Shown here piece by piece: positions 34,192 to 55,497 of a DNA stretch of 64,000 nucleotides (position 1 is its first letter; every line of letters begins with the position of its first letter). Source of the stretch: a virus; IMG/VR virus record IMGVR_UViG_3300033571_024374, positions 59,973 through 123,972 of that record. One strand, 5' to 3'. The translations under genes were made by a program, and so were the position numbers. The notes under the pieces are model-generated. The model saw only the letters and a program-made list of their open reading frames with translations, was not told the DNA's origin and made no database searches.

Positions 34192-35631
34192 ATGTCTTTT
34201 AAACCAAGTGTTTATCAAGAAGCAATTTTTAATCATATAAAAAATTCAAGTCAAAATGCTGTTATTGAAGCTGTCGCTGGTTCTGGTAAAACAACAACTT
34301 TAATAGAATCTCTGAAAATTGCAAATACTGATAATGTAATATTTGTAGCATTTAATAAACATATAGCTGAAGAACTTAAACCTAAAGTACCTAAAGGCGT
34401 TAGAGTATCCACGATGCATTCTTTTGGATATGAACAGATATTACGTACCTACGGGAAAATTAATATAGATCATTTAAAAGTTAAAAAAATTATACAGGCT
34501 AAAGCAAAGGATTTATATTTAGCATTTTCTGAAAATAAGAATGAATACGCTGAAGATCTTTCTAGTCTCGTTGATTTATTAAGATTGAACCTATGTTCTT
34601 CCGTAGATGAGGTACTAGAAGTAGCATATAAGCATTCTTTGAATAATGCTTCTGATAGTTTGGTAAATGATGCTTTTATCATAATGAAAGAAATGAATAG
34701 AACACGAGATTCTATTGATTTCGTCGATATGATTTATATACCAGCATCGGAGGACATAAAGATTAAAGAGTTCGATTTGGTTTTAGTAGATGAATGTCAA
34801 GATTTATCAAAAAGTCAAATTCAACTTATGAAAAAAATGAAATCCACAGGTGGTAGGATTATTGCAGTTGGTGATAGAAATCAAGCTATTTATGGGTTCG
34901 GTGGAGCAGATAGCCAATCTTTTCAATCTTTAACTCAAATGGAAAATACGATACTACTACCTCTAAGTATATCGTATAGATGTAGTAAATTTGTTATTAG
35001 AGAAGCACAAAAAATAGTTCCAAGTATAGAATACTCTGAACATGCTATTGAAGGTATAGTTAATCACAATGGATTGATGAGAAATATAAAGGATGGTGAT
35101 TTTGTCCTTTGTAGAATGAATGCACCTCTAATATCAACTGCTTTAAAGTTCTTGGCATCTGGATCAAAAGCGAGTGTAAAAGGTATTGATATTGGATCAA
35201 GAATCATTAGTAATCTTAAATCAACTAAAGAAAATGATTTAAAAAAATCATTACTTATCCTTAAGACTAAATACTTTAGAGCAAAAGAAGAACTTGAAAA
35301 TTCAAATGATAGGAAATCTAGAGTTAAATTGATGTCATTAGAAGATATGCTCAATGCAACTCAAATACTTTCAGTAGGATGTCATACGATCGATGACGTA
35401 AAGCGTAAGATTAATGATTTATTCAGTGACACTGAAACTAAGGGCGTTATATTCTCATCCGCACATAAATCAAAAGGTCTTGAAGCCGATAATGTACACA
35501 TACTTAAACCTGAACTCATGCCACTCAAAAATGTGACATTAGACTGGGAAAAGGAACAAGAAAATAACTTACATTATGTTGCCATAACACGATCTAAAAA
35601 TACTTTAAGTTATATTCAAGATTCTATATAA
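34192..35631 (+). CDS. UvrD/Rep-like superfamily 1 DNA helicase
   Basis: All main SF1 motifs are visible: motif I AVAGSGKTTT, Ia IFVAFNKHIAEEL, Ib STMHSFG, II LVDECQDLS, III VGDRNQAIYGFGGAD, IV LSISYRC, V SAHKSKGLEADN and VI YVAITRSKNTL. At 479 residues it is shorter than bacterial UvrD, near the size of phage Dda-type helicases. The first 9 residues of the longer frame would need a TTG start, so I use the ATG at 34192. It probably acts in replication, recombination or repair. Its stop overlaps that of the converging ATP-grasp gene. Confidence 0.9.
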   Translation: MSFKPSVYQEAIFNHIKNSSQNAVIEAVAGSGKTTTLIESLKIANTDNVIFVAFNKHIAEELKPKVPKGVRVSTMHSFGYEQILRTYGKINIDHLKVKKIIQAKAKDLYLAFSENKNEYAEDLSSLVDLLRLNLCSSVDEVLEVAYKHSLNNASDSLVNDAFIIMKEMNRTRDSIDFVDMIYIPASEDIKIKEFDLVLVDECQDLSKSQIQLMKKMKSTGGRIIAVGDRNQAIYGFGGADSQSFQSLTQMENTILLPLSISYRCSKFVIREAQKIVPSIEYSEHAIEGIVNHNGLMRNIKDGDFVLCRMNAPLISTALKFLASGSKASVKGIDIGSRIISNLKSTKENDLKKSLLILKTKYFRAKEELENSNDRKSRVKLMSLEDMLNATQILSVGCHTIDDVKRKINDLFSDTETKGVIFSSAHKSKGLEADNVHILKPELMPLKNVTLDWEKEQENNLHYVAITRSKNTLSYIQDSI

Positions 35632-37042
35632 GCTTTGATCCTTTAGTATCAGGGTCATCTGTTATTACAAATGCTTTATTAGCATTTACAACAATACCTA
35701 ATCTTCTCATAAATGATCTATTTATCAAAATCGGAGTAGTTTTGGTCGATCTATTTATTGGAGAGAATTTTACATTTTTAACCAAAACATCATTAAATAC
35801 TACATCTATTTTGATTATAGGTCTTTCATGTATTACTTCTCCAACTTCTGTTTTTGAATACTCTACAATATCATTAACAAATGTTTTATCACCAATGCTC
35901 CAAATCAATTTCCCATCCTTTTCTTCTATCTTATCTGCGTGAATACTACAGGATTTAGAGCTATTTCCAGTATCAAATTTAGCTACGAGTTCACCTATAC
36001 CAGGTATAGAGATATTTTCAAGATATCCTACTTCTAAATTATAATATGACCAGTTTGATTTATTTGTTGCATAATCAATAATCTTTGTAACTATAGGTTC
36101 ACCTAAAACCTTAGATATACCTTCAGTTCCAGGAGATGAATTTACTTCTAAGATATAAGGTTTATTTGTGTTTTTATCAATCATTATATCAACACCTGAC
36201 CAATGGCAACCAACTGCAGTTGTCGCATCAAACGCTAATTGCTCAAGTTCAGGTGTAATCTCATAAGAATCAACTTTACCACCTAAAGAGTAATTTGTTC
36301 TAAAATCATCTTTTACGGATTCTCTTTTCATACAACCTAATATTACTCTATTACCTGATTTTTCTTTTAATGGATTAAATTTTTTAACCAATACTTGAAT
36401 CCTAACATCAAAATCAGCATCGATTTTTTCTTGAATTAGAATTTCACTATCTGGATCTAACTTCTTAATTGTTTGATATACAGACTTTAAAGATGCATAT
36501 GAATCTACTATCGATACACCTATACCTTGTGTTCCAGATATTAATTTTACTATAAGTGGGAATTTATTACCTACTATTTCTAAAGCAGTATCTAAGAACT
36601 TTATATCAGGTACTAGTGAATACTTTGGAACTGGTAAACCATACTCTTCCAGTATTTGTGATGTAATATATTTATTTTCACAAGTTTTAATAGAATCCAA
36701 AGAATTTACTATAAAATATCTTGCCTTCTCTAATTGATAAAATAATCTACGAGTATGTGAATTTTCTATAACCCCTCTTCTTGGAATAATAACAGTAGTA
36801 TCTGGATCAATCAAAATTCTTTTAGAGTTATAGATAATTAGATGACCGTTATATACCTTTTCTAAAAGTGCATTATTGATATCAATAACATGGCATTCTA
36901 ACCCTCTTTCTTCACAAACAGCTTCAAAAGATTTAGTAGTAGGGCTACCATTTGATTTTCCAGTAAATATAATTACTTTAATAGCATCTTGTTTCGATTC
37001 ATTCAGAAAGGAAGAATAATCTAAAATGGTTTTAGTTTCCAT
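35624..37042 (-). CDS. ATP-grasp ligase (RimK-like) fused to a retropepsin-like domain, with capsid-targeting-like N-terminus
   Basis: The 472-residue protein begins METKTILDYSSFLNESKQ, the shared motif with L-N-E. Residues about 20-320 are a RimK-type ATP-grasp: PLIVKLISGTQGIGVSIVD (ATP loop), ILIQEKIDADFDVRIQVL, and YILEVNSSPGTEGI (metal site). Residues about 345-472 resemble the retropepsin-like/ATP-dependent zinc-protease domain, with LVAKFDTGNSSKS holding a D-T-G triad. RimK enzymes add amino acids to protein C-termini. The fused pair occurs in other T4-like phages as a protein-modifying unit; here it also has the packaging motif. Promoter 27 bases upstream. Confidence 0.8.
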   Translation of the reverse strand: METKTILDYSSFLNESKQDAIKVIIFTGKSNGSPTTKSFEAVCEERGLECHVIDINNALLEKVYNGHLIIYNSKRILIDPDTTVIIPRRGVIENSHTRRLFYQLEKARYFIVNSLDSIKTCENKYITSQILEEYGLPVPKYSLVPDIKFLDTALEIVGNKFPLIVKLISGTQGIGVSIVDSYASLKSVYQTIKKLDPDSEILIQEKIDADFDVRIQVLVKKFNPLKEKSGNRVILGCMKRESVKDDFRTNYSLGGKVDSYEITPELEQLAFDATTAVGCHWSGVDIMIDKNTNKPYILEVNSSPGTEGISKVLGEPIVTKIIDYATNKSNWSYYNLEVGYLENISIPGIGELVAKFDTGNSSKSCSIHADKIEEKDGKLIWSIGDKTFVNDIVEYSKTEVGEVIHERPIIKIDVVFNDVLVKNVKFSPINRSTKTTPILINRSFMRRLGIVVNANKAFVITDDPDTKGSKLI

Positions 37043-39663: not shown

Positions 39664-41280
39664 TTATCCTGTTACTTGTACTACTCTTGCTGAAACTACC
39701 CAATTAATGTTCTTTCCTGCTTCTCCAGTAGCTTGAAATAAAGGACCGCCTGATGTTGCATCAGCAGTCACATTTATATCCCATGCGTTATTATCTTCAC
39801 CGATGATTTTTTTATCTACAGTTCCCACTAAAGCGACACTCGAAGCTAAAGAACTTCTATCCATAGTAAAATATAATTTATATCCAGCTGATTCTCCATC
39901 AGAATCAGTTCTTCTCGCCACAACTAAACATTCCACAGTCCAAGTTGAATCAGACGGAATAGCGGCTAAAAGTGAACTACCATCCAAATATAGGCTTACG
40001 GCTGAACCATTAGTAGTTGTACCCCTATAAATTAGATTCATAGTTTGAGCATCGCCAGAAGTAGAAAAAGACCCAGAGGCGAATGCTATTTCTCCATGAT
40101 TCGTTGCCTTAGCTTCATAACCCATGGCGGTACTATAATTACCCTGGGCACCATTATTTCTTCCACCAACTATCGTAGAATAATTACCACTCGCTACTTG
40201 AACAGAATTAGATCTAGATGACTGTAAATCAACAGCATTGGATCCTCTCTTATCACCACCTGTTGAAGTACCATCAGGTAAATTCACAAGAAATGCACCA
40301 GTATTTTTGGGCTGTATAACTGCATCGATACTTGGACTAGCACCAGTTGCTATAAGTCGAGATGCATGTATTGGTGTATTCGGTGATGTTGTGTTCAAAC
40401 TTGGTGTAAACCCATCTAGACTACCCTGGTTACCCTGGTTACCTTGAGTTCCTTGCGTCCCTTGTGTTCCTTGATTACCCTGATTACCTTGAACTCCTGG
40501 ATCACTTTGAGGTCCTTGTGTACCTGTACCCTGTGTCCCTTGAGGACCCTGACGACCTTGATTTCCCTGGTTACCTTGATTACCCTGGTTACCTTGATTA
40601 CCTTGTGCGCCTTGAGCTCCTTGAGCCCCTTGCGTACCTTGATTCCCTTGAGCACCTGTAATACTTTGAGGACCTTGGGTACCAACATTACCTTGATTTC
40701 CCTGGTTACCTTGACGACCTTGATTTCCCTGGTTACCTTGATTTCCCTGGTTACCTTGACGACCTTGAGCACCCTGTGCTCCTTGTCTTCCTAATAAGCC
40801 TTGAGGACCTAATCCACCTTGAGTACCTTGGCGACCTTGACGACCTTGATTACCCTGATTACCTTGACGACCTTGAGCACCAATTTGACCTTGAATACCT
40901 TGAAATCCTTGTGTACCTCTATTACCTTGAAATCCTTGTGTTCCACTTCCACCCTGTCTACCTTGCACACCTTGAATTCCACGTATACCTGGAGATCCTT
41001 GAATACCCTGGATACCCTGGATACCCCGTAGTCCTTGAGTACCTTGCGTTCCTTGATTACCTTGGATACCTCGAACGCCTTGGTTACCTTGAGATCCAGT
41101 TATACCTTGGAAACCTTGAGAACCAGATATACCTTGAATTCCACGTATACCTTGAGATCCTTGAATTCCTTGAGTACCTTGTTGACCTGGTGTTCCTTGA
41201 ACTCCAATACCAATAGTTCCTTGGGTGCCTTGAACACCTTGGGTTCCTTGAACTCCTTGCGTACCTTGTGCTCCGTCCAT
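39664..41280 (-). CDS. Collagen-like fibre protein with YadA-head-like repeats
   Basis: The first 285 or so residues of this 538-residue protein are Gly-X-Y repeats, mostly GxQGxQ (QGTQGVQGTQ, GNQGNQGNQ), which would form a collagen-like triple helix. The next 250 residues are beta-rich with a head-repeat block (SVQVASGNYSTIVGGRNNG, QGNYSTAMGYEAKATNHG) like YadA-type trimeric adhesins, and a C-terminal beta domain (WNVVSARVVQ type ending). This is a trimeric fibre, very likely for receptor binding. It has its own promoter 28 bases upstream. Confidence 0.85.
   Translation of the reverse strand: MDGAQGTQGVQGTQGVQGTQGTIGIGVQGTPGQQGTQGIQGSQGIRGIQGISGSQGFQGITGSQGNQGVRGIQGNQGTQGTQGLRGIQGIQGIQGSPGIRGIQGVQGRQGGSGTQGFQGNRGTQGFQGIQGQIGAQGRQGNQGNQGRQGRQGTQGGLGPQGLLGRQGAQGAQGRQGNQGNQGNQGNQGRQGNQGNQGNVGTQGPQSITGAQGNQGTQGAQGAQGAQGNQGNQGNQGNQGNQGRQGPQGTQGTGTQGPQSDPGVQGNQGNQGTQGTQGTQGNQGNQGSLDGFTPSLNTTSPNTPIHASRLIATGASPSIDAVIQPKNTGAFLVNLPDGTSTGGDKRGSNAVDLQSSRSNSVQVASGNYSTIVGGRNNGAQGNYSTAMGYEAKATNHGEIAFASGSFSTSGDAQTMNLIYRGTTTNGSAVSLYLDGSSLLAAIPSDSTWTVECLVVARRTDSDGESAGYKLYFTMDRSSLASSVALVGTVDKKIIGEDNNAWDINVTADATSGGPLFQATGEAGKNINWVVSARVVQVTG
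40424..41280 (-). repeat. Gly-X-Gln coding repeat of the fibre gene
   Basis: A long run of 9- to 18-base near repeats (ccttg/ccctg with aac/acc variants on the plus strand) encoding G-x-Q triplets. It produces open shadow frames on the other strand, which I do not count as genes. Such tracts change length by recombination. Confidence 0.85.
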
Positions 41281-41353: not shown

Positions 41354-41361
41354 GATATATA
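41354..41361 (+). promoter_or_regulatory. Putative late promoter (GATATATA)
   Basis: GATATATA on the plus strand, 40 bases before the start at 41401. It forms a divergent pair with the octamer at 41308 in the same 120-base gap. Confidence 0.65.
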
Positions 41362-41400: not shown

Positions 41401-42423
41401 ATGACGGAAGAAGAAGCAAAACAAATGCTATCTCAAAGAGATGCTGAATTTAATTCTGTAAAGGAAGTGGGAGAAGATATTAGATTAGGTTCACCTACAA
41501 TCCCACCACCTAAACCTAAGCCAAAAGCAGTTCAAACAGAAGAACCTGAACCAGTAATGGAACAATCTATATCTGAACCTGCTATCCGTACAGTTCATTC
41601 TAATTTTGATATTGGTTGGTATGAAGTACCCTTAGATTCTTTACCAACAAAGGGTTTATTTTATCCTAATGAATCCCGTCTTTTAATTAAGCCAGCAACG
41701 GTTTCAATCATTAGACATTTTTCTACAGTTGATGATACAAATCCTTTAGAATTAAACGATGCATTCGATTATATCCTTGAGAATCTTGTAAGATTTAATG
41801 TTCCAGGTATGCCATCATCTTACAAGAATTTAAAAGATATTGACAAGTTATCAGTTATTTTACACGTAAGAGATGCTACGTTTAAAAATGGAGAATCAAA
41901 AATAGTTAGTGATATCACTTGTTCATGTGGACATACTGATGCTAAAACTTTAAAATGGTCAGATTTTGAATTTTTCAATTTCAATCCTGAATTAATGCAG
42001 TTTTATAATTCAGAGAATAAAATATTTCAAGTTAATTTCAATGATCCTATGCAATCAGATGTTGGATTAACCTTGCCTTCAATAGGCATGAGAAATTTTG
42101 TTCAGAGATATGTTACTAATAAAATTAAACAAAAGAGAACATACGACAAGTCTTTTGCAAATATAGCTCCATTTATTATGGATGATTGGTCATCTATAAA
42201 TGAATCGTTGTATGATCAACAACTCGAACAATCTTCAGAATGGACGACATATCAATTTGCAGCATTTGTTAGAATAGTTGATTTAGTTAAAAAATCTACA
42301 ACCTCAAGAATAAAGCACAAGTGTACAAGTTGCGGTGCAGAGGTCACCGCCCCAAGTAGCTTTCGAGGAGGAATTAAATCTCTCTTTATTCCAGACTTAC
42401 AAAGTATCACTAGACAGGCTTGA
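41401..42423 (+). CDS. Baseplate hub assembly protein, gp26-like
   Basis: The 340-residue protein has an acidic/Pro-rich N-terminus (1-65), then the domain of the T4 gp26-type family: YEVPLDSLPTKGLFYPNES, RLLIKPATVSIIRHFS and KDIDKLSVILHVRDAT. Four cysteines (Cys174 and Cys176 in CSCGHTD, Cys308 and Cys311 in CTSCGAE) form a likely zinc site. AAGGA precedes the start by about 11 bases. The next frame overlaps its end by 89 bases. In T4, gp26 is followed by gp51, also needed for the hub, which fits this order. Confidence 0.65.
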   Translation: MTEEEAKQMLSQRDAEFNSVKEVGEDIRLGSPTIPPPKPKPKAVQTEEPEPVMEQSISEPAIRTVHSNFDIGWYEVPLDSLPTKGLFYPNESRLLIKPATVSIIRHFSTVDDTNPLELNDAFDYILENLVRFNVPGMPSSYKNLKDIDKLSVILHVRDATFKNGESKIVSDITCSCGHTDAKTLKWSDFEFFNFNPELMQFYNSENKIFQVNFNDPMQSDVGLTLPSIGMRNFVQRYVTNKIKQKRTYDKSFANIAPFIMDDWSSINESLYDQQLEQSSEWTTYQFAAFVRIVDLVKKSTTSRIKHKCTSCGAEVTAPSSFRGGIKSLFIPDLQSITRQA

Positions 42424-42637
42424 AGATAATCTATTTACCTTGTCTAGATTAGGTATGAGCTTGTTTGAATTAGAAGAAGTTCCATATTGGAGATATGAGA
42501 CTATAATAGAAAAAACAAATCAATGGTTTGAATCATTGAAACAAGCAAAGCAAAATAGAACAAATGGTAAAGATCAAGTCACTACTATTTTTGATATAAA
42601 TGTAAATAAAAATCCGAATCTATGGACAACGAATTAA
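42335..42637 (+). CDS. Small overlapping baseplate-assembly-type protein
   Basis: This 100-codon frame starts at GTG 42335 and overlaps the gp26-like gene by 89 bases in the +1 frame. The conserved-looking part is downstream: LFTLSRLGMSLFELEEVPYW, then YETIIEKTNQWFESLKQ, similar in plan to small hub-assembly proteins of other T4-like phages. True start could be lower (ATG at 42455) or the product could come from a frameshift near the gp26-like stop. It overlaps the next start by 16 bases. Confidence 0.55.
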   Translation: MQRSPPQVAFEEELNLSLFQTYKVSLDRLEDNLFTLSRLGMSLFELEEVPYWRYETIIEKTNQWFESLKQAKQNRTNGKDQVTTIFDINVNKNPNLWTTN

Positions 42638-44835
42638 TAGAAAAACTCATCAGTTCAGATGAATTGATAGTTAAAACAATAGAAGAAAATTCTCAATCAT
42701 TAAATGTATTGATTGATGGATTTTCTTCTATTATGTCCATGACTACTATTGATGGTGATAAATTAGAAAAGCAAATAGAAGAACAAAGTGAAAAAGAAGC
42801 TGAAACTATTAAAGGGACTTTAACAGAAAGTATAAATCAATCATCTAGTTTATCCCTCGAACAAGTTGCAGAAGCTGAGGCATCAGTTTCAGAAGGATCT
42901 ATATTATCCGATGAAACAATAAATAGTCTTATAGATGTCATATCAAATGTACAAACCGTTTTAGAAAATCTTAATACTGAAAGTTTATCTACTGTATCAA
43001 CTGAAACAACACCAACTACAGAAGTTAATACAGGAAATTTAACTCAAGTTATAGATGATTTTAAAACGCTTTCAAATTTAAATTGGTGTACAGATTGGTT
43101 GAAATGCTTAGAAAAGATAATAGAACAGGCAGATGTAGTTAAAGAAGCACTAGGTTCTATACCGAGTGATAAAAAGGTTTCTTTAGGTATAAATGAAGAT
43201 GACTTAAAAAAAGTAGATCAATCGATTCAAAAAGTAAAAGAAGATATTTCAACGGATATAAATCTTTCAGTTGCTAAAACCGAAATGATCGAACAGGCTA
43301 CTCAATCCCCAGCATCATCAGAACTTTCAACTGGATTTTTAAATAATTTTTCAGATTTAACTGAAAAAATAAGTTCATTTACAGAAAAAGTTGAAAACAA
43401 TACGGTATCTCAAGAATCTTTCGTTAACAAAGTAAATCAGTTCTCTGAAACAACAAGTAAAACAATAGAGAATACATTTACTTCATTTAGTGATACTACA
43501 AAAACTATTCTTGAAAAACCTAATACCTTTGAAACACTTCTACAAAGTAAAGTAATAACTGAAACAAAGCCACCAATGGAAATTGGAGTTGGGTTTGAGG
43601 AAATGGTAAATATGCCTATGCCTCCTTTGAATCAACCAGCAGTCCCCATGCCCCAACCTCCACCACCAGCTATTTTAGGTTCAGAGCAAGGTACTGCAAT
43701 GTCTCAGTTGATTCAAGTGTTACCTATGCCACCTATGATAACTGAAATAGGTAAGGAATCAGTTTTAGAACAAGGCACACCAACTACAAGTGCAGTAAAG
43801 CAAGAAGTGGTCAATATACCGCCACCACCACCTCTAATTAGCCCAGAAATGTCATTTGAGGGATTATTAGGTCAAATACCAATGCCTGTCATTTCTGCAC
43901 CACTAAGTCCTTTAAATATCGAAGATCTTTTATCTTTTAAAAATCCAACGGTAGAAACGACTAATATTTCAACAGAAATTAATAAAGAAGAAATAATTCC
44001 TTTAGATTTAGAAAAATTGTTTAATTTTGAGCCGAAGGTAATACCTGGTGGTACAATTAAAGAAACAAATACAAATTTTATAGGATTGCAAGAACCAGTA
44101 GGTTTTGAACAATTAAGTAATATGGGAACAACTTTAATTCCGCAACAGATAGAAAATATGGGATTTCAGATTGAAGCAAATCCAGAATTATCTGGAATGC
44201 AGATTAGTCCATTTACTGGAACACCTGAAATTGGAACAACAGCAAATGAAACTTCAGTTCAGAACATTCAAAATCTGCCAATATCGAGTTTCAATCCTTT
44301 TGAAAATATGTTTCCTATGAAAAACCCTACTACTGCAGTAGGCTCAGTCATGCCAGAATCTACATTAGAAAAACCAACTAATTTATCTTCTAGTATTGAA
44401 GAAATATTTATAAAAAATCAAGAATCACCACAAATTAATTTAGGAAATGCTATTTCAAAAATTCAAAATGAAATGCCACAAGCACCTTCTGAAATAGCGG
44501 CTTCTACAGAAGTAATGATGAATGAAGTAAATCTTCAACCTTTGGAATCTACACTATCATCGTCTATCACATCTTTAGGAGAAAATTTAAAAAGCTCAAC
44601 ACCTGCTCAAGTAACTCCAGTTACAACTGAAGGTGAATCAAATAATAATGTAATGAATGAAGTTTTAAATATGTTAACTAAACTCGATTCGACACTACAG
44701 ACACTTTCTTCTTCGCAAGGAAGAAATATAGCTATACCATCATTAGGAAATTCTCTCAGTGATGCTCAGGCTAGAATGATAGGAAGACAGATAGCAAATG
44801 AATTAAAAGACAGTTTTTCTAGATTGTATAATTAA
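42622..44835 (+). CDS. Large low-complexity virion protein, 737 aa
   Basis: The protein has helical N- and C-termini (LIEKLISSDELIVKTIEEN; LNMLTKLDSTLQTLSSSQG and ARMIGRQIANELKDSFSRL) joined by a long Pro/Met/Thr/Ser/Glu-rich middle (about 315-640) with PPPP tracts. It has no membrane segment. Position after the gp26-like pair suggests a tail-hub or tape-measure-like protein (T4 has gp27, gp28, gp29 here), but the sequence alone does not show this. Confidence 0.65.
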   Translation: MDNELIEKLISSDELIVKTIEENSQSLNVLIDGFSSIMSMTTIDGDKLEKQIEEQSEKEAETIKGTLTESINQSSSLSLEQVAEAEASVSEGSILSDETINSLIDVISNVQTVLENLNTESLSTVSTETTPTTEVNTGNLTQVIDDFKTLSNLNWCTDWLKCLEKIIEQADVVKEALGSIPSDKKVSLGINEDDLKKVDQSIQKVKEDISTDINLSVAKTEMIEQATQSPASSELSTGFLNNFSDLTEKISSFTEKVENNTVSQESFVNKVNQFSETTSKTIENTFTSFSDTTKTILEKPNTFETLLQSKVITETKPPMEIGVGFEEMVNMPMPPLNQPAVPMPQPPPPAILGSEQGTAMSQLIQVLPMPPMITEIGKESVLEQGTPTTSAVKQEVVNIPPPPPLISPEMSFEGLLGQIPMPVISAPLSPLNIEDLLSFKNPTVETTNISTEINKEEIIPLDLEKLFNFEPKVIPGGTIKETNTNFIGLQEPVGFEQLSNMGTTLIPQQIENMGFQIEANPELSGMQISPFTGTPEIGTTANETSVQNIQNLPISSFNPFENMFPMKNPTTAVGSVMPESTLEKPTNLSSSIEEIFIKNQESPQINLGNAISKIQNEMPQAPSEIAASTEVMMNEVNLQPLESTLSSSITSLGENLKSSTPAQVTPVTTEGESNNNVMNEVLNMLTKLDSTLQTLSSSQGRNIAIPSLGNSLSDAQARMIGRQIANELKDSFSRLYN

Positions 44836-44849
44836 AAAAGGAATTAATA

Positions 44850-45380
44850 GTGAATAATCAAAGTTCATTCAAAGGTAATTCTAAAAAAGATGACCCTAGA
44901 ATAAATAATGAGATCATCTCTGAAACAGTTAGAGTTCTCGATGAAATTGGAAATCCAATTGGAATTATGAGTGTCCAAGAAGCTCTTACGATTGCTGAAG
45001 AAGAAAACAAGGATTTGATTGAAATATCACCTGAAGCAAAACCGCCAGTCGTAAAAGTAATTGAATACGGCAAATGGAAGTATAATAAGATTAAAGCTAC
45101 TCAAAAAAATAATAAAGATAAGAAAACTACTAAAGAAGTTCGTTTTTCTATAAACATTAGTGATAATGATTTAAAAACTAAAATCAAAATGATAGAAAAG
45201 TTTTTAAAACAAGGTGATAATGTTTTAGTAAAAGTAATAATGAAAGGAAGAGAAAGAGTTAGAGAACAGTATGGTACAGATAAAATGAATAAAATTATAT
45301 CAAGTTCTAAAGACTTTTATAAAAGTATATCTGAAGTCAAATTAGACAAAAACACTATTCAGTGCACAATGTTTTCTTAA
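44850..45380 (+). CDS. infC: Translation initiation factor IF-3
   Basis: The 176-residue protein is a full-length bacterial-type IF-3. The N-domain (about 15-78) has RINNEIISETVRVLDEIGN, PIGIMSVQEALTIAEEE and the hallmark DLIEISPEAKPPVVKVIEYGKWKY. A Lys-rich linker (80-94) leads to the C-domain (95-176) with TKEVRFSINISDNDLKTKI, FLKQGDNVLVKV and MKGRERVREQYG, where the RGRE-type basic patch binds the 30S. IF-3 stops 50S joining and proofreads the initiator tRNA and start codon. It starts at GTG, with AAAAGGA upstream. It is the last gene of the plus-strand run and overlaps the stop of the converging methyltransferase. Confidence 0.93.
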   Translation: MNNQSSFKGNSKKDDPRINNEIISETVRVLDEIGNPIGIMSVQEALTIAEEENKDLIEISPEAKPPVVKVIEYGKWKYNKIKATQKNNKDKKTTKEVRFSINISDNDLKTKIKMIEKFLKQGDNVLVKVIMKGRERVREQYGTDKMNKIISSSKDFYKSISEVKLDKNTIQCTMFS

Positions 45381-45955
45381 ACCATTGGAAAATCAATTAG
45401 ATTCAACCAATCCTCTTTATTATCTTTAAAATTATTCCATGTTAAATCTTCGGGTTTAACATGGATTGTTTTTTGTGCCCCCCTTTTTATTATACCTATA
45501 CCATGATCGATATCAAATACATACATAGTTAAATCACTAAATGATCTAAAGTGCACCCAAGCTTTCCATACATCTCCAGTCCAAACCTTTGATTCTCTCG
45601 GAACTAATTGCTCCCTCTCCCTAGAAGGTAAACAATCATGTACCATAATGATACCACCTGTATTTAAATATTTTAGAGAATTTTGTATGTCTTTTATGAC
45701 TTGATCCTTTTCATGTAATCCATCAACAAATATAAAATCGAAAAATAGATCATTAGAATTAAAGAAATCATCAGATGTCATTTTATGAGTAGCAGATCTT
45801 GCATTATTATCAGGATCAACACTTAATTTATATAAGCATTTTATTTGATTAAAGTTTTTACCGTCTCCAGTACCAATCTCTAAATATGATTTATACTGAT
45901 GTTTCTTTATGTAATTATTTATTAATAAGGTGTGCATATCTCCTAAATCCTTCAT
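45377..45955 (-). CDS. Class I SAM-dependent methyltransferase
   Basis: The 192-residue protein has motif I YLEIGTGDGKNFNQI, the second acidic strand LSVDPDNN, motif IV FFDFIFVDGLHEKDQVIKDI and a later GGIIMVHDCLPSR. The pattern fits the Methyltransf_24 group and matches the family of the gene at 1481. It overlaps the glycosyltransferase gene upstream by 41 bases unless a later start (ATG at 45937) is used. A role in capping or decorating a glycan is likely by context. Confidence 0.8.
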   Translation of the reverse strand: MKDLGDMHTLLINNYIKKHQYKSYLEIGTGDGKNFNQIKCLYKLSVDPDNNARSATHKMTSDDFFNSNDLFFDFIFVDGLHEKDQVIKDIQNSLKYLNTGGIIMVHDCLPSREREQLVPRESKVWTGDVWKAWVHFRSFSDLTMYVFDIDHGIGIIKRGAQKTIHVKPEDLTWNNFKDNKEDWLNLIDFPMV

Positions 45956-46487
45956 ATGGTTTTAATAATAATATAGACAAACTAAATTTATTTAAAACAT
46001 AATTAAAAGAAAGCTGATCACGTATAGAATTATTTTTTACCTCATTCCACCACGCTTCATTAAATTCTCTCATATATGGAGTATTTTTTCGTATCAAAAA
46101 ACCACTCGCTATCATTCCATTATACTCTGGATAATTATCACTTCTATACTTTTGTATTTGTTTAAATATTACTTGAGGATCGTCTTTTTTTAGACGAATA
46201 CATTCATTAGCTTCTTCGTAAATACAATTTCTATCGGGATGTTTCCAAGTCACTATGTCATAATTAAAATCAAATTTACTATTCAAACATTCAAAATTTG
46301 AATCTATCCATATAGAAAAATCATGTTCTGGTAAATATTTATGTGGATTTAATTTTATTTCTCTAGCTAATAGTCTAGGGTTTTTATTATTTGAACAGCT
46401 AATTCTATAAAATGGATAATCTGAATTTATGATTGTTCCAGTTCTATCATAGTTTCCTATATTAGCTGTATAAATAATTACTTTCAT
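45915..46487 (-). CDS. DUF616-type glycosyltransferase-like protein
   Basis: The 190-residue protein has the DUF616/TOD1-like pattern: KVIIYTANIGNYD at the start, PHKYLPEHDFSIWIDSNFE as the acidic site region, DIVTWKHPDRNCIYEEAN, and the C-terminal RDQLSFNYVL motif. These proteins are thought to be glycosyltransferases. It is coupled to the next gene upstream by ATGA and is the middle of a trio with a GT-A gene and a methyltransferase. Confidence 0.75.
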   Translation of the reverse strand: MKVIIYTANIGNYDRTGTIINSDYPFYRISCSNNKNPRLLAREIKLNPHKYLPEHDFSIWIDSNFECLNSKFDFNYDIVTWKHPDRNCIYEEANECIRLKKDDPQVIFKQIQKYRSDNYPEYNGMIASGFLIRKNTPYMREFNEAWWNEVKNNSIRDQLSFNYVLNKFSLSILLLKPYEGFRRYAHLINK

Positions 46488-47032
46488 TTTAATAAGTGTT
46501 TTGTACTTTTTATACTTCTAGAAAAATCTCCGCCTCTATACCAGTGATATACATATACACCATTCATTCTATACATTATTTGGTTTTGAGACAATGCTTT
46601 AAAATAAAATTCATTATCAATACCAAGCATTCCATTTTCTCTAAATCCCCCAATATCTCTCCAAACCTTTTTACTTATTAATATTAATACCCCACTCATA
46701 GCATTTACTGGATCTTGAATTTGTGTAACTGAATCATAGTAGTTATTAAAAAGTTGCAAACCTACTTCTCTATGATATTTCATATCATTTGTTTTTGGAT
46801 CCCCATACAACTGCCAAGGACAACCTACTCTATTAGTATAACATGTAAAAAATCCTGATTCAGGATATTTTCTTACTATATCTTCTAATTGTTTTCCAAA
46901 AAATGATGTTGTAAAACAAGCATCTGCATCTAAAAAACAAACAAAATCGCTTTCACCTACTAAGTGCATAGAAGTATTATATGCAGCTCCTACATTTTTT
47001 CCAGTATTCCAAGGTATAATGTAATGTATCAT
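46484..47032 (-). CDS. GT-A-type glycosyltransferase, short form
   Basis: I place the start at the ATG at 47032 (MIHYIIPWNTGKNVGAAYN), because the longer frame would begin inside the terminator hairpin at 47050. The 182-residue protein has the metal site SDFVCFLDADACFT, a NAMSGVLILISKKVWRDIGG acceptor region and LGIDNEFYFKALSQ, as in family 2 enzymes. The N-terminal strand that normally precedes KNVG is short, so it is a minimal GT-A. It starts the trio that ends in the methyltransferase at 45377. Confidence 0.8.
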   Translation of the reverse strand: MIHYIIPWNTGKNVGAAYNTSMHLVGESDFVCFLDADACFTTSFFGKQLEDIVRKYPESGFFTCYTNRVGCPWQLYGDPKTNDMKYHREVGLQLFNNYYDSVTQIQDPVNAMSGVLILISKKVWRDIGGFRENGMLGIDNEFYFKALSQNQIMYRMNGVYVYHWYRGGDFSRSIKSTKHLLK

Positions 47033-47041
47033 ATTATTCAA

Positions 47042-47079
47042 AATAAAAAAACCCAATTATTATATAAAATAATTGGGTT
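47042..47079 (-). terminator. Rho-independent terminator
   Basis: A 10-bp stem (aacccaatta 47050-47059 with taattgggtt 47070-47079) is followed leftward by a T-rich run. It ends the transcript of the small gene at 47098. Confidence 0.8.
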
Positions 47080-52571: not shown

Positions 52572-55451
52572 TTAAATTAATCTTAAAGATGATTTAGGAA
52601 CGAAATCGCGAACACCGTTAATTTCTACCTCTACAGCTTCATCTAGGTTAGCATTCTCAAAAGCATCTTGAAACACTATGACTTTATGATTTGCTAATTC
52701 TCCATCAAATTCTGGAGAAACAATAGCATACATTTGTGTTCCTTCTAACTCCTCATGCCCTTCGTGCTCTTCATGTTCTTCTGAATCATCGGATTTATAG
52801 AATGAATAAGAAATTCCTGAATCTTCTGACTCAAATTTTTCTAAATCCATCTTATCTTCTGAGCTCATACCCATAAATTTAGATGGTTCGCTGCTCAAAG
52901 GATTATATTCAGGATCCCATTCTTCATCATCTTCTTCATCTGGTGAATATTTATATGGATCCTTTACGAATGTGTCATCTAAATACTTTTTAAAACTATT
53001 AGGAACAGATTGCCATTTATTTGATATTTCAGCATCCTCTACTTCCATTTCTATCCCTTTTCTAGAATAGTCAGGATTTTCATACATATCAATAGTATCT
53101 ATAACATCCATATCGTCTATAACTTCGGACATAACAGATTCTAATGGTTGTTCTTCCATAGTTGGTTCACTGCCCATTTCTATACCCATTTGATAATTAT
53201 CTGCAGAAGTCATTTCAATCTTATTTTCTTGAGATGACAAATTAGAAAATTCCTCTTCTGTTTGCTGACCATTTTGCAACATAATTATAGCAACGTGGCG
53301 TATAGAATCTATCGCTGTAATTCTACCTAAACCTTTACCTGTAACCTTTACCATATCTCCAACTTGGAAATCTCTTTGAGGTAATTCTTGAACATATGCA
53401 GTTGTACCCTTCTTCTTGTAATCTTCCAATTTTTCCATTTCTTCTGCATATTCTTCTTCATCAGAAACTTCTTCTTGTGAAGCGAGTCTCAATTCAGGGA
53501 ATCTATAAGTTGATTGAGTACCATCTGAGAAAATAACAGTTGCTGTTTTCTGAGCAGAGTCAATACCTGTAATCTTACCTACTCCCTTCTCAGCTACATC
53601 GACTTTATCACCAATGTTAAACAATCTTTCTGGAGTTTCTTGTACAAAAGCAGCTGTTCCTTTTGAGCCCTTTGTTTTTTTAGATTCATGCATAGATGAA
53701 CCTTCAGGCTTTAATTCTATTTCTGAAAAGTCCAAACGCTGTAAATTACCATCTTCTAATGATATAGTAGCCTTTTTCTGTACAGAATCTACAGAAACTA
53801 TTCTACCTTCTTTTCCAGCATACATTACTAAATCACCTACACCAAAATCCATATCTTCCATGAATTCTACTTCAAGTTCTGGAATTTCTTCAAAATCTAT
53901 CATATCAATATCATCTTCTTCAGAACTTTCATATTCATAAGTTTTGAAAGTTTTCAATTGAGCTGTTTTTTCAGCATATGTGTTTTTAAGTTTGTTAATT
54001 TCAGAATACAATTCTCTTTTAACTGCTGAAATTTCATCAGAACTGGATAATAAAATATCTTGTTGTGCTTCTTCAATTTTCAAAATATTTCTTTCGCATT
54101 CATCAATCTTATTTAGAATTACTCTTCTTTCATTCTCAATTTGTTGAATTGCTCTGTTTTCTGTAGATAAAAAGTCAGATAGACTTTCAGATATATCATA
54201 ATTCAAAAACTCAAGAATAAAATCACGAGCTTGTGTTCCATTCATAGATGAATAAACTTTATTTTCATTCATGAAAGGATTTGTTTTAACGACAGTCACA
54301 GATCCACCCAATCTTAAAATGCTTGCTTTAATAGATGGGTGATTCTTAGAAATAATAGTTTTAGCAAAATCAATCTCACAAAGTGTATCTATATTTTCAT
54401 AGATAGCGTTGAAATTGTTGAGATCGTCTTGTTGATTCCAACGGAAAATACCAGATTCAACAAGTTTATTATTTACTTCGGAAATATTTAATTTATTACC
54501 ATTAAGAACAATAGACTTATCTGATACATTGATTTTCAAAACGTTATTGCCATATTCATAAGAAATAGTATTTCTATCAACAGCAACATTGTTTCGATTT
54601 ATAATTGAATTTAAACGAACGAAATTTTCATTAATTCTTCTCATTGAATCAATTTCAATAGGAGTGATCGTTTCATTCACTTTTTTGAAATAGTGGTTAT
54701 CAATTGCAAAGTAATCTGAATTTTTCTCTACTAAAACAAAAGAAAATACTGGATTTACAATACATTCTGTTGAAGTTCTAGAAATATTAAATTTAGATTT
54801 CGCTTCATTTGATTCAAATGTTTTCAACTGATTTTGAAGATTTCTGATGATTGGTTCATAGGAATAAATTTCCATTTCAGCAATCATAGCAGAACGTAAA
54901 TCAGAGGATTTGTTTTCAATAAATTCACGTAAATTAGTTATCAAAGGCTTGTAAAATTTAGCAGATTTTGAATTTTCTAATGTATGAACAGCAGTAGCAA
55001 CCGCTATTTCTTCTGCTAAGTTATTCTGTGCATCCATAACGACTTTAACCGCTTCATTTATTGAAGGATCAAAACAGAATGGCTTAAGTTGTGCTACGAA
55101 TTGCTCAGATAACAAAAAGTCTGGTGTTTCCATGACTTTGCTTTTCTGATACCATTCAGTAACATATTGAATTCTTGGGTTATGATCCCATACTCCTGTA
55201 TATCTAATTCTATCAAGAGCGCGAGAAATACCCATATCGTTAAGCTTATTAAGATTCTTTTCGCTATCCAAGAATCGTTTTACATGAATATCTGAGCTCT
55301 TAGTTTCACTCAATTTTTCATGTACAAGTGTACTTAACTTTTGTTCTGATACATTACCTGCTAATTCAAGGAGGCTTTCTAATACTTCACGAACAGCCGC
55401 ATCAGAAGTGCTGTTCTTCAGTTTTTCTACTCTATTCTTTAAGAAGGACAT
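52572..55451 (-). CDS. Large protein with repeated SH3/KOW-like modules, 959 aa
   Basis: The start is taken at ATG 55451 (MSFLKNRVEKLKN) because AAAGGA lies eight bases before it; the longer frame from 55478 has none. The N-terminal 480 residues are helical/mixed, then a coiled coil (about 425-495). From residue about 520 come three beta modules of about 40 residues with the same pattern: FGVGDLVMYAGKEGRIVSVD, FNIGDKVDVAEKGVGKITGI and FQVGDMVKVTGKGLGRITAI, the last two each led by T-A-F/Y-VQE. A Glu/Asp/Met-rich tail (750-960) follows. No family is known; virion or head core is likely. Confidence 0.75.
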   Translation of the reverse strand: MSFLKNRVEKLKNSTSDAAVREVLESLLELAGNVSEQKLSTLVHEKLSETKSSDIHVKRFLDSEKNLNKLNDMGISRALDRIRYTGVWDHNPRIQYVTEWYQKSKVMETPDFLLSEQFVAQLKPFCFDPSINEAVKVVMDAQNNLAEEIAVATAVHTLENSKSAKFYKPLITNLREFIENKSSDLRSAMIAEMEIYSYEPIIRNLQNQLKTFESNEAKSKFNISRTSTECIVNPVFSFVLVEKNSDYFAIDNHYFKKVNETITPIEIDSMRRINENFVRLNSIINRNNVAVDRNTISYEYGNNVLKINVSDKSIVLNGNKLNISEVNNKLVESGIFRWNQQDDLNNFNAIYENIDTLCEIDFAKTIISKNHPSIKASILRLGGSVTVVKTNPFMNENKVYSSMNGTQARDFILEFLNYDISESLSDFLSTENRAIQQIENERRVILNKIDECERNILKIEEAQQDILLSSSDEISAVKRELYSEINKLKNTYAEKTAQLKTFKTYEYESSEEDDIDMIDFEEIPELEVEFMEDMDFGVGDLVMYAGKEGRIVSVDSVQKKATISLEDGNLQRLDFSEIELKPEGSSMHESKKTKGSKGTAAFVQETPERLFNIGDKVDVAEKGVGKITGIDSAQKTATVIFSDGTQSTYRFPELRLASQEEVSDEEEYAEEMEKLEDYKKKGTTAYVQELPQRDFQVGDMVKVTGKGLGRITAIDSIRHVAIIMLQNGQQTEEEFSNLSSQENKIEMTSADNYQMGIEMGSEPTMEEQPLESVMSEVIDDMDVIDTIDMYENPDYSRKGIEMEVEDAEISNKWQSVPNSFKKYLDDTFVKDPYKYSPDEEDDEEWDPEYNPLSSEPSKFMGMSSEDKMDLEKFESEDSGISYSFYKSDDSEEHEEHEGHEELEGTQMYAIVSPEFDGELANHKVIVFQDAFENANLDEAVEVEINGVRDFVPKSSLRLI

Positions 55452-55497
55452 GCCGAATCCTTTATTTTTAATATACATAAGTATAGTTTGTGTTATC

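Follow-up and report, generated by a model that had tools for sequence, protein, structure and literature searches.

A full-length translation initiation factor IF3 encoded behind tail-region genes in a T4-like jumbo phage

The stretch of DNA analysed here (the window, 64,000 nucleotides) comes from a virus record of 123,972 bases, which matches bases 1694-125665 of the 199,927-base IMG/VR contig G001 at 99.999% identity. Its source is a T4-like jumbo phage, sampled from the environment, with a record of about 200 kb. On the plus strand, positions 44850-45380 code for a full-length IF3 of 176 aa, which comprises an N domain (residues ~18-85), a Lys-rich linker, and a C domain (~94-172). The gene ends with TAA; its start is GTG, as the sequence-only reading of this DNA had stated. 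An in-frame stop codon at 44829 lies upstream of this start, and a Shine-Dalgarno (SD)-like AAGGAA (44838-44843, plus strand) is placed so that 7 nt separate the end of its AGGA from the GTG. Orthologues are present in two relatives: the IF3 gene of L003 also starts with GTG and has an AGGA at identical spacing, and that of L004 starts with ATG, with no AGGA found upstream at the corresponding spacing.

Bacterial IF3, the product of infC, is described by the Pfam families PF05198 and PF00707 and has 180 aa in E. coli. In the Pfam search, the phage protein matched IF3_N with 81.5 bits (cut-off 26.9) and IF3_C with 63.9 bits (cut-off 34.8). Residues 17-174 aligned with positions 5-164 of the 168-position profile phrog_9787, 'translation initiation factor', at an E-value of 1.9e-34, and IF-3 chains in the PDB were matched at 2.7e-26. 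Profile searches that could have placed the protein outside the family thus all gave IF3, and the segments on which the earlier claim of a phage-encoded, two-domain IF-3 was built (DLIEISPEAKPPVVKV, KGRERVRE, and the Lys-rich linker) were all found. An AlphaFold2 model built from a 26-row alignment had a mean pLDDT of 91.2 and a pTM of 0.58, a low value of the kind to be expected when a flexible linker joins two domains. All of the best Foldseek matches to this model were IF3 structures, 30S-bound IF3 included, and the target-normalised TM-score was 0.88 for the N domain against 1tif and 0.85 for the C domain against 1tig. Judged domain by domain, the predicted fold is complete.

Residues were compared, in E. 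coli numbering, between the three orthologues (window, L003, and L004) and ~115-120 bacterial IF3s. N16, D52, P63, K72, Y75, K94, D106, K110, F117, G132, and R133 are kept in all three orthologues. A loss of residues essential for 30S binding, which would have spoken against a genuine IF-3, was not seen for the documented residues: K110, which among the 30S-binding residues has the best documentation, is kept, as is the fidelity residue Y75. The E. coli K110L mutant is deficient in 30S interaction (PMC12297416), and Y75 mutants lose fidelity and retain binding (PMC5037330). The C domain carries several changes (K123N, K125L, R129I, H137 to R or K, G167K, and R168N). Positions 123 and 125 are basic in 98% of the sampled bacterial IF3s and are N and L in the window IF3, and most of the basic C-terminal tail is gone, with 8 residues past the R168 column compared to a bacterial median of 15. 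Because of these substitutions and the shortened tail, the affinity for the 30S subunit may be reduced. In T. thermophilus IF3, R91, R123, and R159 touch or adjoin the start codon (PMC5037330). Their E. coli equivalents are R99, R131, and R168, where the equivalence of R159 and R168 rests on an inferred one-residue length difference, and in the window clade these positions are occupied by S, K, and N. Basic residues there are typical of bacterial-type IF3 and not strictly defining: 17 of 115 bacterial IF3s are likewise non-basic at both 99 and 168, so that S and N do not exclude membership in the family. Such sequences make up 10 of 23 Patescibacteria samples and none of the 53 from Pseudomonadota and Bacteroidota. 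Loss of the start-codon-contacting arginines as a general trait of phage IF3s was suggested by 12 phage sequences and fell with 81, since both positions were non-basic in 11 of 81 viral versus 17 of 115 bacterial IF3s.

The IF3 gene is the last of four plus-strand genes (41401-45380) within a mostly minus-strand region. The product of the first (41401-42423, plus strand) has 340 aa, carries a zinc-ribbon-like CxxC pair at a terminus, and is 74-78% identical in L003 and L004. It is homologous to tail-region genes of the Bacteroidota phages PTm1, PAU, MA9V-2, and Lak, and in PTm1, PAU, and MA9V-2 the homologues lie just 3' of the tail sheath. Homology of this protein to T4 gp26 or gp51 was considered and set aside as weak (hhalign probability of 22% for gp26). 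The second gene (42335-42637, plus strand) encodes about 100 aa as called and has counterparts in L003 and L004; its true start is probably later than called. The third (42622-44835, plus strand) codes for a 737-aa Pro-rich protein, has no family match in Pfam or PHROG searches, and is separated from the IF3 start by 14 nt; its counterparts have 781 aa in L003 and 921 aa in L004. All four genes occur in the same order in both relatives, whose IF3s are 64% (L003) and 63% (L004) identical to that of the window. The sequence-only reading had placed IF3 at the end of a baseplate-type run. This holds in part: IF3 is the last of four genes and the first of them is a tail-region homologue, but no direct match to a baseplate family was obtained.

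Directly 3' of IF3, a hairpin of -14.8 kcal/mol followed by a U-tract is found in L003 and one of -20 kcal/mol in L004; in the window, the next gene is convergent and overlaps the end of IF3 by 4 bases. A methyltransferase and two glycosyltransferase-like genes (45377-47056, minus strand) separate IF3 from an 80-aa gene in the window as in L003 and are missing from L004, which marks them as a variable cassette. Divergent from the IF3 unit, a minus-strand gene at 39664-41280 encodes a 538-aa collagen-like protein with GxQ/GxR repeats, which is conserved in both L003 and L004 and has 666 aa in the latter.

A promoter-like motif, GATATATA (41354-41361, plus strand), is located upstream of the four-gene unit, and both L003 and L004 have it ahead of their units. 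Sense-strand copies precede 53 of the 205 G001 genes and antisense copies 14, mostly at 30-39 nt from the start codon. The motif represents the top 7-mer family enriched ahead of G001 genes: GATATAT occurs in 42 of the 107 non-coding upstream stretches compared to 2.9 expected. Within the window, GATATATA also lies upstream of a minus-strand feature at 52572-55478. The T4-type late promoter TATAAATA, a different motif, showed no enrichment upstream of G001 genes. As its unit follows GATATATA, IF3 has a control signal common to structural and other genes, and this shared motif together with the gene order suggests late expression.

The wider surroundings are those of a phage. Phage genes flank IF3 on both sides, and the window also contains genes for a T4-type portal, a tail sheath stabiliser, and a DNA end protector, as well as SbcC/SbcD (gp46/47-like) genes and three endolysin-like genes. 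An L20 motif beside IF3 was found neither in the window nor in any of the 80 viral loci checked, compared to 52 of 72 bacterial loci. Contamination by a bacterial infC-rpmI-rplT operon was rejected because of this result. The best relatives of the portal, SbcD, and the tail-region protein of 340 aa belong to the huge phage LR756500, Prevotella Lak phages, Tenacibaculum phage PTm1, Chryseobacterium phage MA9V-2, and PAU. On these grounds a Bacteroidota host is the default inference, although this is not a demonstration.

Virus-borne IF3s have been published before (PMC5259590, PMC7162821, PMC7824862, PMC11242549), and IMG/VR, scanned with profile guidance, yielded 89 IF3 relatives, of which 80 were retained, so that at least 80 IMG/VR contigs encode IF3. 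Hence, phage IF3 is a known and fairly widespread kind of protein. The window IF3 resembles its bacterial counterparts in having both domains, the Lys-rich linker, the fold, and K110, R133, and Y75. However, it is at most 48% identical over the aligned part to any sampled bacterial IF3, lies outside the infC-rpmI-rplT operon, and differs by K123N, K125L, R99S, R168N, and the short basic tail. The jumbo phages CBB, GAP32, RaK2, 121Q, and PBECO4 encode IF3 (PMC5259590), and the window protein shares with this type its full length and its presence in a large lytic myovirus. Its identity to the IF3s of CBB, GAP32, and RaK2 is only about 28-30%, however, it falls into a separate clade, and the CBB-type genes have other neighbours (dda and a Clp-type protease gene). 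Judged by portal and SbcD, LR756500 stands nearest to the window phage within the phage collection. It has an IF3 as well, but this one groups with Bacteroidota, occupies another genome position, and belongs to a phage whose genes are without SD-like leaders. IF1, IF3, S1, and S21 of huge phages have been interpreted as a means of intercepting host translation (PMC7162821). The bS21 of Bacteroidetes phages is encoded among structural genes and expressed late (PMC9723584). The IF3 described here likewise is an initiation protein whose gene sits amid structural genes, in a large phage that probably infects Bacteroidota, except that IF3 is a factor whereas bS21 is a ribosomal protein, and S21 was not found in G001.

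The sequence-only reading had proposed to find the donor lineage by phylogeny. In a careful tree of 84 sequences the window clade was separate and received 100/100 support, but its wider home was without support and the donor was not resolved. Bacterial IF3s of four phyla match the window IF3 alike, at best 102-113 bits each, and no donor therefore stands out. Quick trees put the clade beside some Patescibacteria (SH-aLRT 78-94), a position that had no starred support in the careful tree and that, given the long branch of the window clade, is treated as weak; Patescibacteria were not retained as donor. A recent Bacteroidota origin is not shown by the tree, and a common clade with Bacteroidota IF3s is not rejected (AU p 0.20). 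The AU test speaks against a single clade of the 11 phage IF3s (p 0.016), a result that concerns origin and not the match to the PHROG 9787 profile. The IF3s of LR756500, LR756501, and LR756504 (L156-L158) group with Bacteroidota IF3s (98% SH-aLRT), unlike the window clade, and phages thus seem to have acquired IF3 several times independently. In a quick tree the window IF3 also stood apart from 72 further IMG/VR IF3s. Judging from these trees, it represents a lineage of its own, distinct from all the other viral copies in the comparison.

Which mRNAs such a factor might favour is less straightforward. The suggestion that it biases initiation toward GTG starts found little support, because IF3 accepts AUG, GUG, and UUG as 'canonical' without discrimination (PMC4611024), because the L004 orthologue starts with ATG, and because only 7 of the 205 genes called in G001 by a crude caller start with GTG. 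The last figure also led us to reject a GTG preference of the phage as a whole. A bias toward SD-less mRNAs fares hardly better. Leaderless initiation is antagonised by IF3 (PMC4611024), and SD-like leaders are even rarer in PTm1 and PAU, which have no IF3. In G001, G002, and G003, 19%, 15%, and 14% of the genes have SD-like leaders, versus 3-5% in shuffled sequences (z 5-10), and IF3 itself belongs to this minority of window-lineage genes. The proportion is 57% in T4, and in PTm1, PAU, LR756500, LR756504, and LR756502 it is 0-6% and not clearly above shuffled sequences. IF3_N matches are present in LR756500 and LR756504, and none was obtained in PTm1, PAU, MA9V-2, Lak-B5, LR756502, or T4. As the two distributions disagree, IF3 does not track SD use across the compared phages. 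In Bacteroidia ribosomes, the anti-SD is normally hidden by bS21, bS18, and bS6, and in F. johnsoniae formation of a 30S complex on the SD-bearing rpsU mRNA needs IF3 (PMC9976891). For the window lineage, either the host is no typical member of the Bacteroidia or initiation is altered by the phage. Inferring the SD use of candidate host phyla from their infC loci was abandoned, being confounded by ribosomal-protein operons and base composition.

Outside the window, about 89 kb away, G001 encodes a 384-aa bS1-like protein (G001:195807-196961, plus strand; L020:15807-16961), whose best PDB match is bS1 (E-value 2e-14) and which scores 57 bits against Pfam S1. This is a second initiation-related gene of the same phage. 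Searches of G001 found neither S21 nor IF1, nor any tRNAs. A RimK-like ATP-grasp ligase (35624-37042, minus strand; PF08443, 110 bits) is 77-83% identical in G002 and G003. Bacterial RimK attaches glutamate to ribosomal protein S6.

The reading that we favour, with a probability of roughly 0.6, is that the gene provides a working, late IF3-type factor, which binds the host 30S subunit and re-tunes start-site selection with the bS1-like protein. Since it would be transcribed with the tail genes from a phage promoter, IF3 is probably made late. It would then bind the host 30S subunit beside or in place of host IF3, hold it apart from the 50S subunit, and, perhaps together with the bS1-like protein, adjust start-site selection during virion protein production. 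We infer that it is produced late, attaches to the 30S subunit, and competes with host IF3, a point that the sequence-only reading had likewise put forward as inference; any preference for phage mRNAs is equally conjectural. The phage IF3 probably serves to steer host ribosomes late in infection. Family, fold, kept residues, the conserved place in the operon, GATATATA, and the bS1-like gene support this reading; the C-domain changes, the existence of related phages without IF3, and the failure to find IF1, S21, or tRNAs in G001 weaken it. The protein might instead mainly split and recycle ribosomes, providing a large pool of free 30S subunits late in infection or releasing idle ribosomes, without any preference for phage mRNAs. 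Anti-association is a core function of IF3, whose isolated C domain performs IF3 functions in vitro (PMC4611024), K110 and R133 are kept, and a comparative study suggests a role of phage IF3 in ribosome rescue or translation support (PMC7824862). The findings do not set recycling apart from the favoured reading, but the bS1-like gene hints at mRNA selection too, and we regard recycling as the main role as unlikely. More doubtful still is a host-shutoff factor, an altered, dominant-negative IF3 that occupies 30S subunits and blocks host initiation. K123N, K125L, G167K, R168N, and the shortened basic tail, set against the kept K110, would suit such a protein. Yet the N domain, the linker, and Y75 are intact, phage genes depend on the same ribosomes, and the place among tail genes suggests expression at a time when shutoff would be costly.

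The remaining alternatives are less probable again. IF3, the bS1-like protein, and the RimK-like ligase might form a kit through which the phage re-specifies initiation where host ribosomes normally disregard SD sequences, or host and donor might both be Patescibacteria-like. Phage mRNAs with SD-like leaders would gain an advantage through the three proteins together, and the ligase could modify bS6 of the anti-SD-hiding pocket in Bacteroidota; we consider this distinctly improbable. A moonlighting role as a virion protein or in the assembly of the tail, in place of one in translation, would fit the terminal position of IF3 in the tail-region unit of three records and the structural or protease genes that adjoin IF3 in several jumbo phages. 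It is very improbable, however, as ribosome-contact residues and both domains are conserved over 36% divergence, and IF3 sits in unrelated places in other phages. That phages seemingly acquired IF3 repeatedly might also point to a mere passenger, captured from a bacterium and without a selected role, but a gene that is intact and in the same place in three records despite 63-64% protein identity makes this extremely hard to credit.

The IF3 of this phage is real, intact, conserved, and tellingly placed, yet of an already known kind. The apparently repeated acquisition argues that IF3 is useful to phages. Owing to the changes in the C domain and to an SD use that contrasts with that of close relatives, whether this IF3 alters start-site choice can be tested directly with purified components. 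If the favoured role is true, this would be a clean case in which a virus supplies, during particle assembly, one of the three initiation factors of bacteria, and its lineage has an S1-like protein as well.
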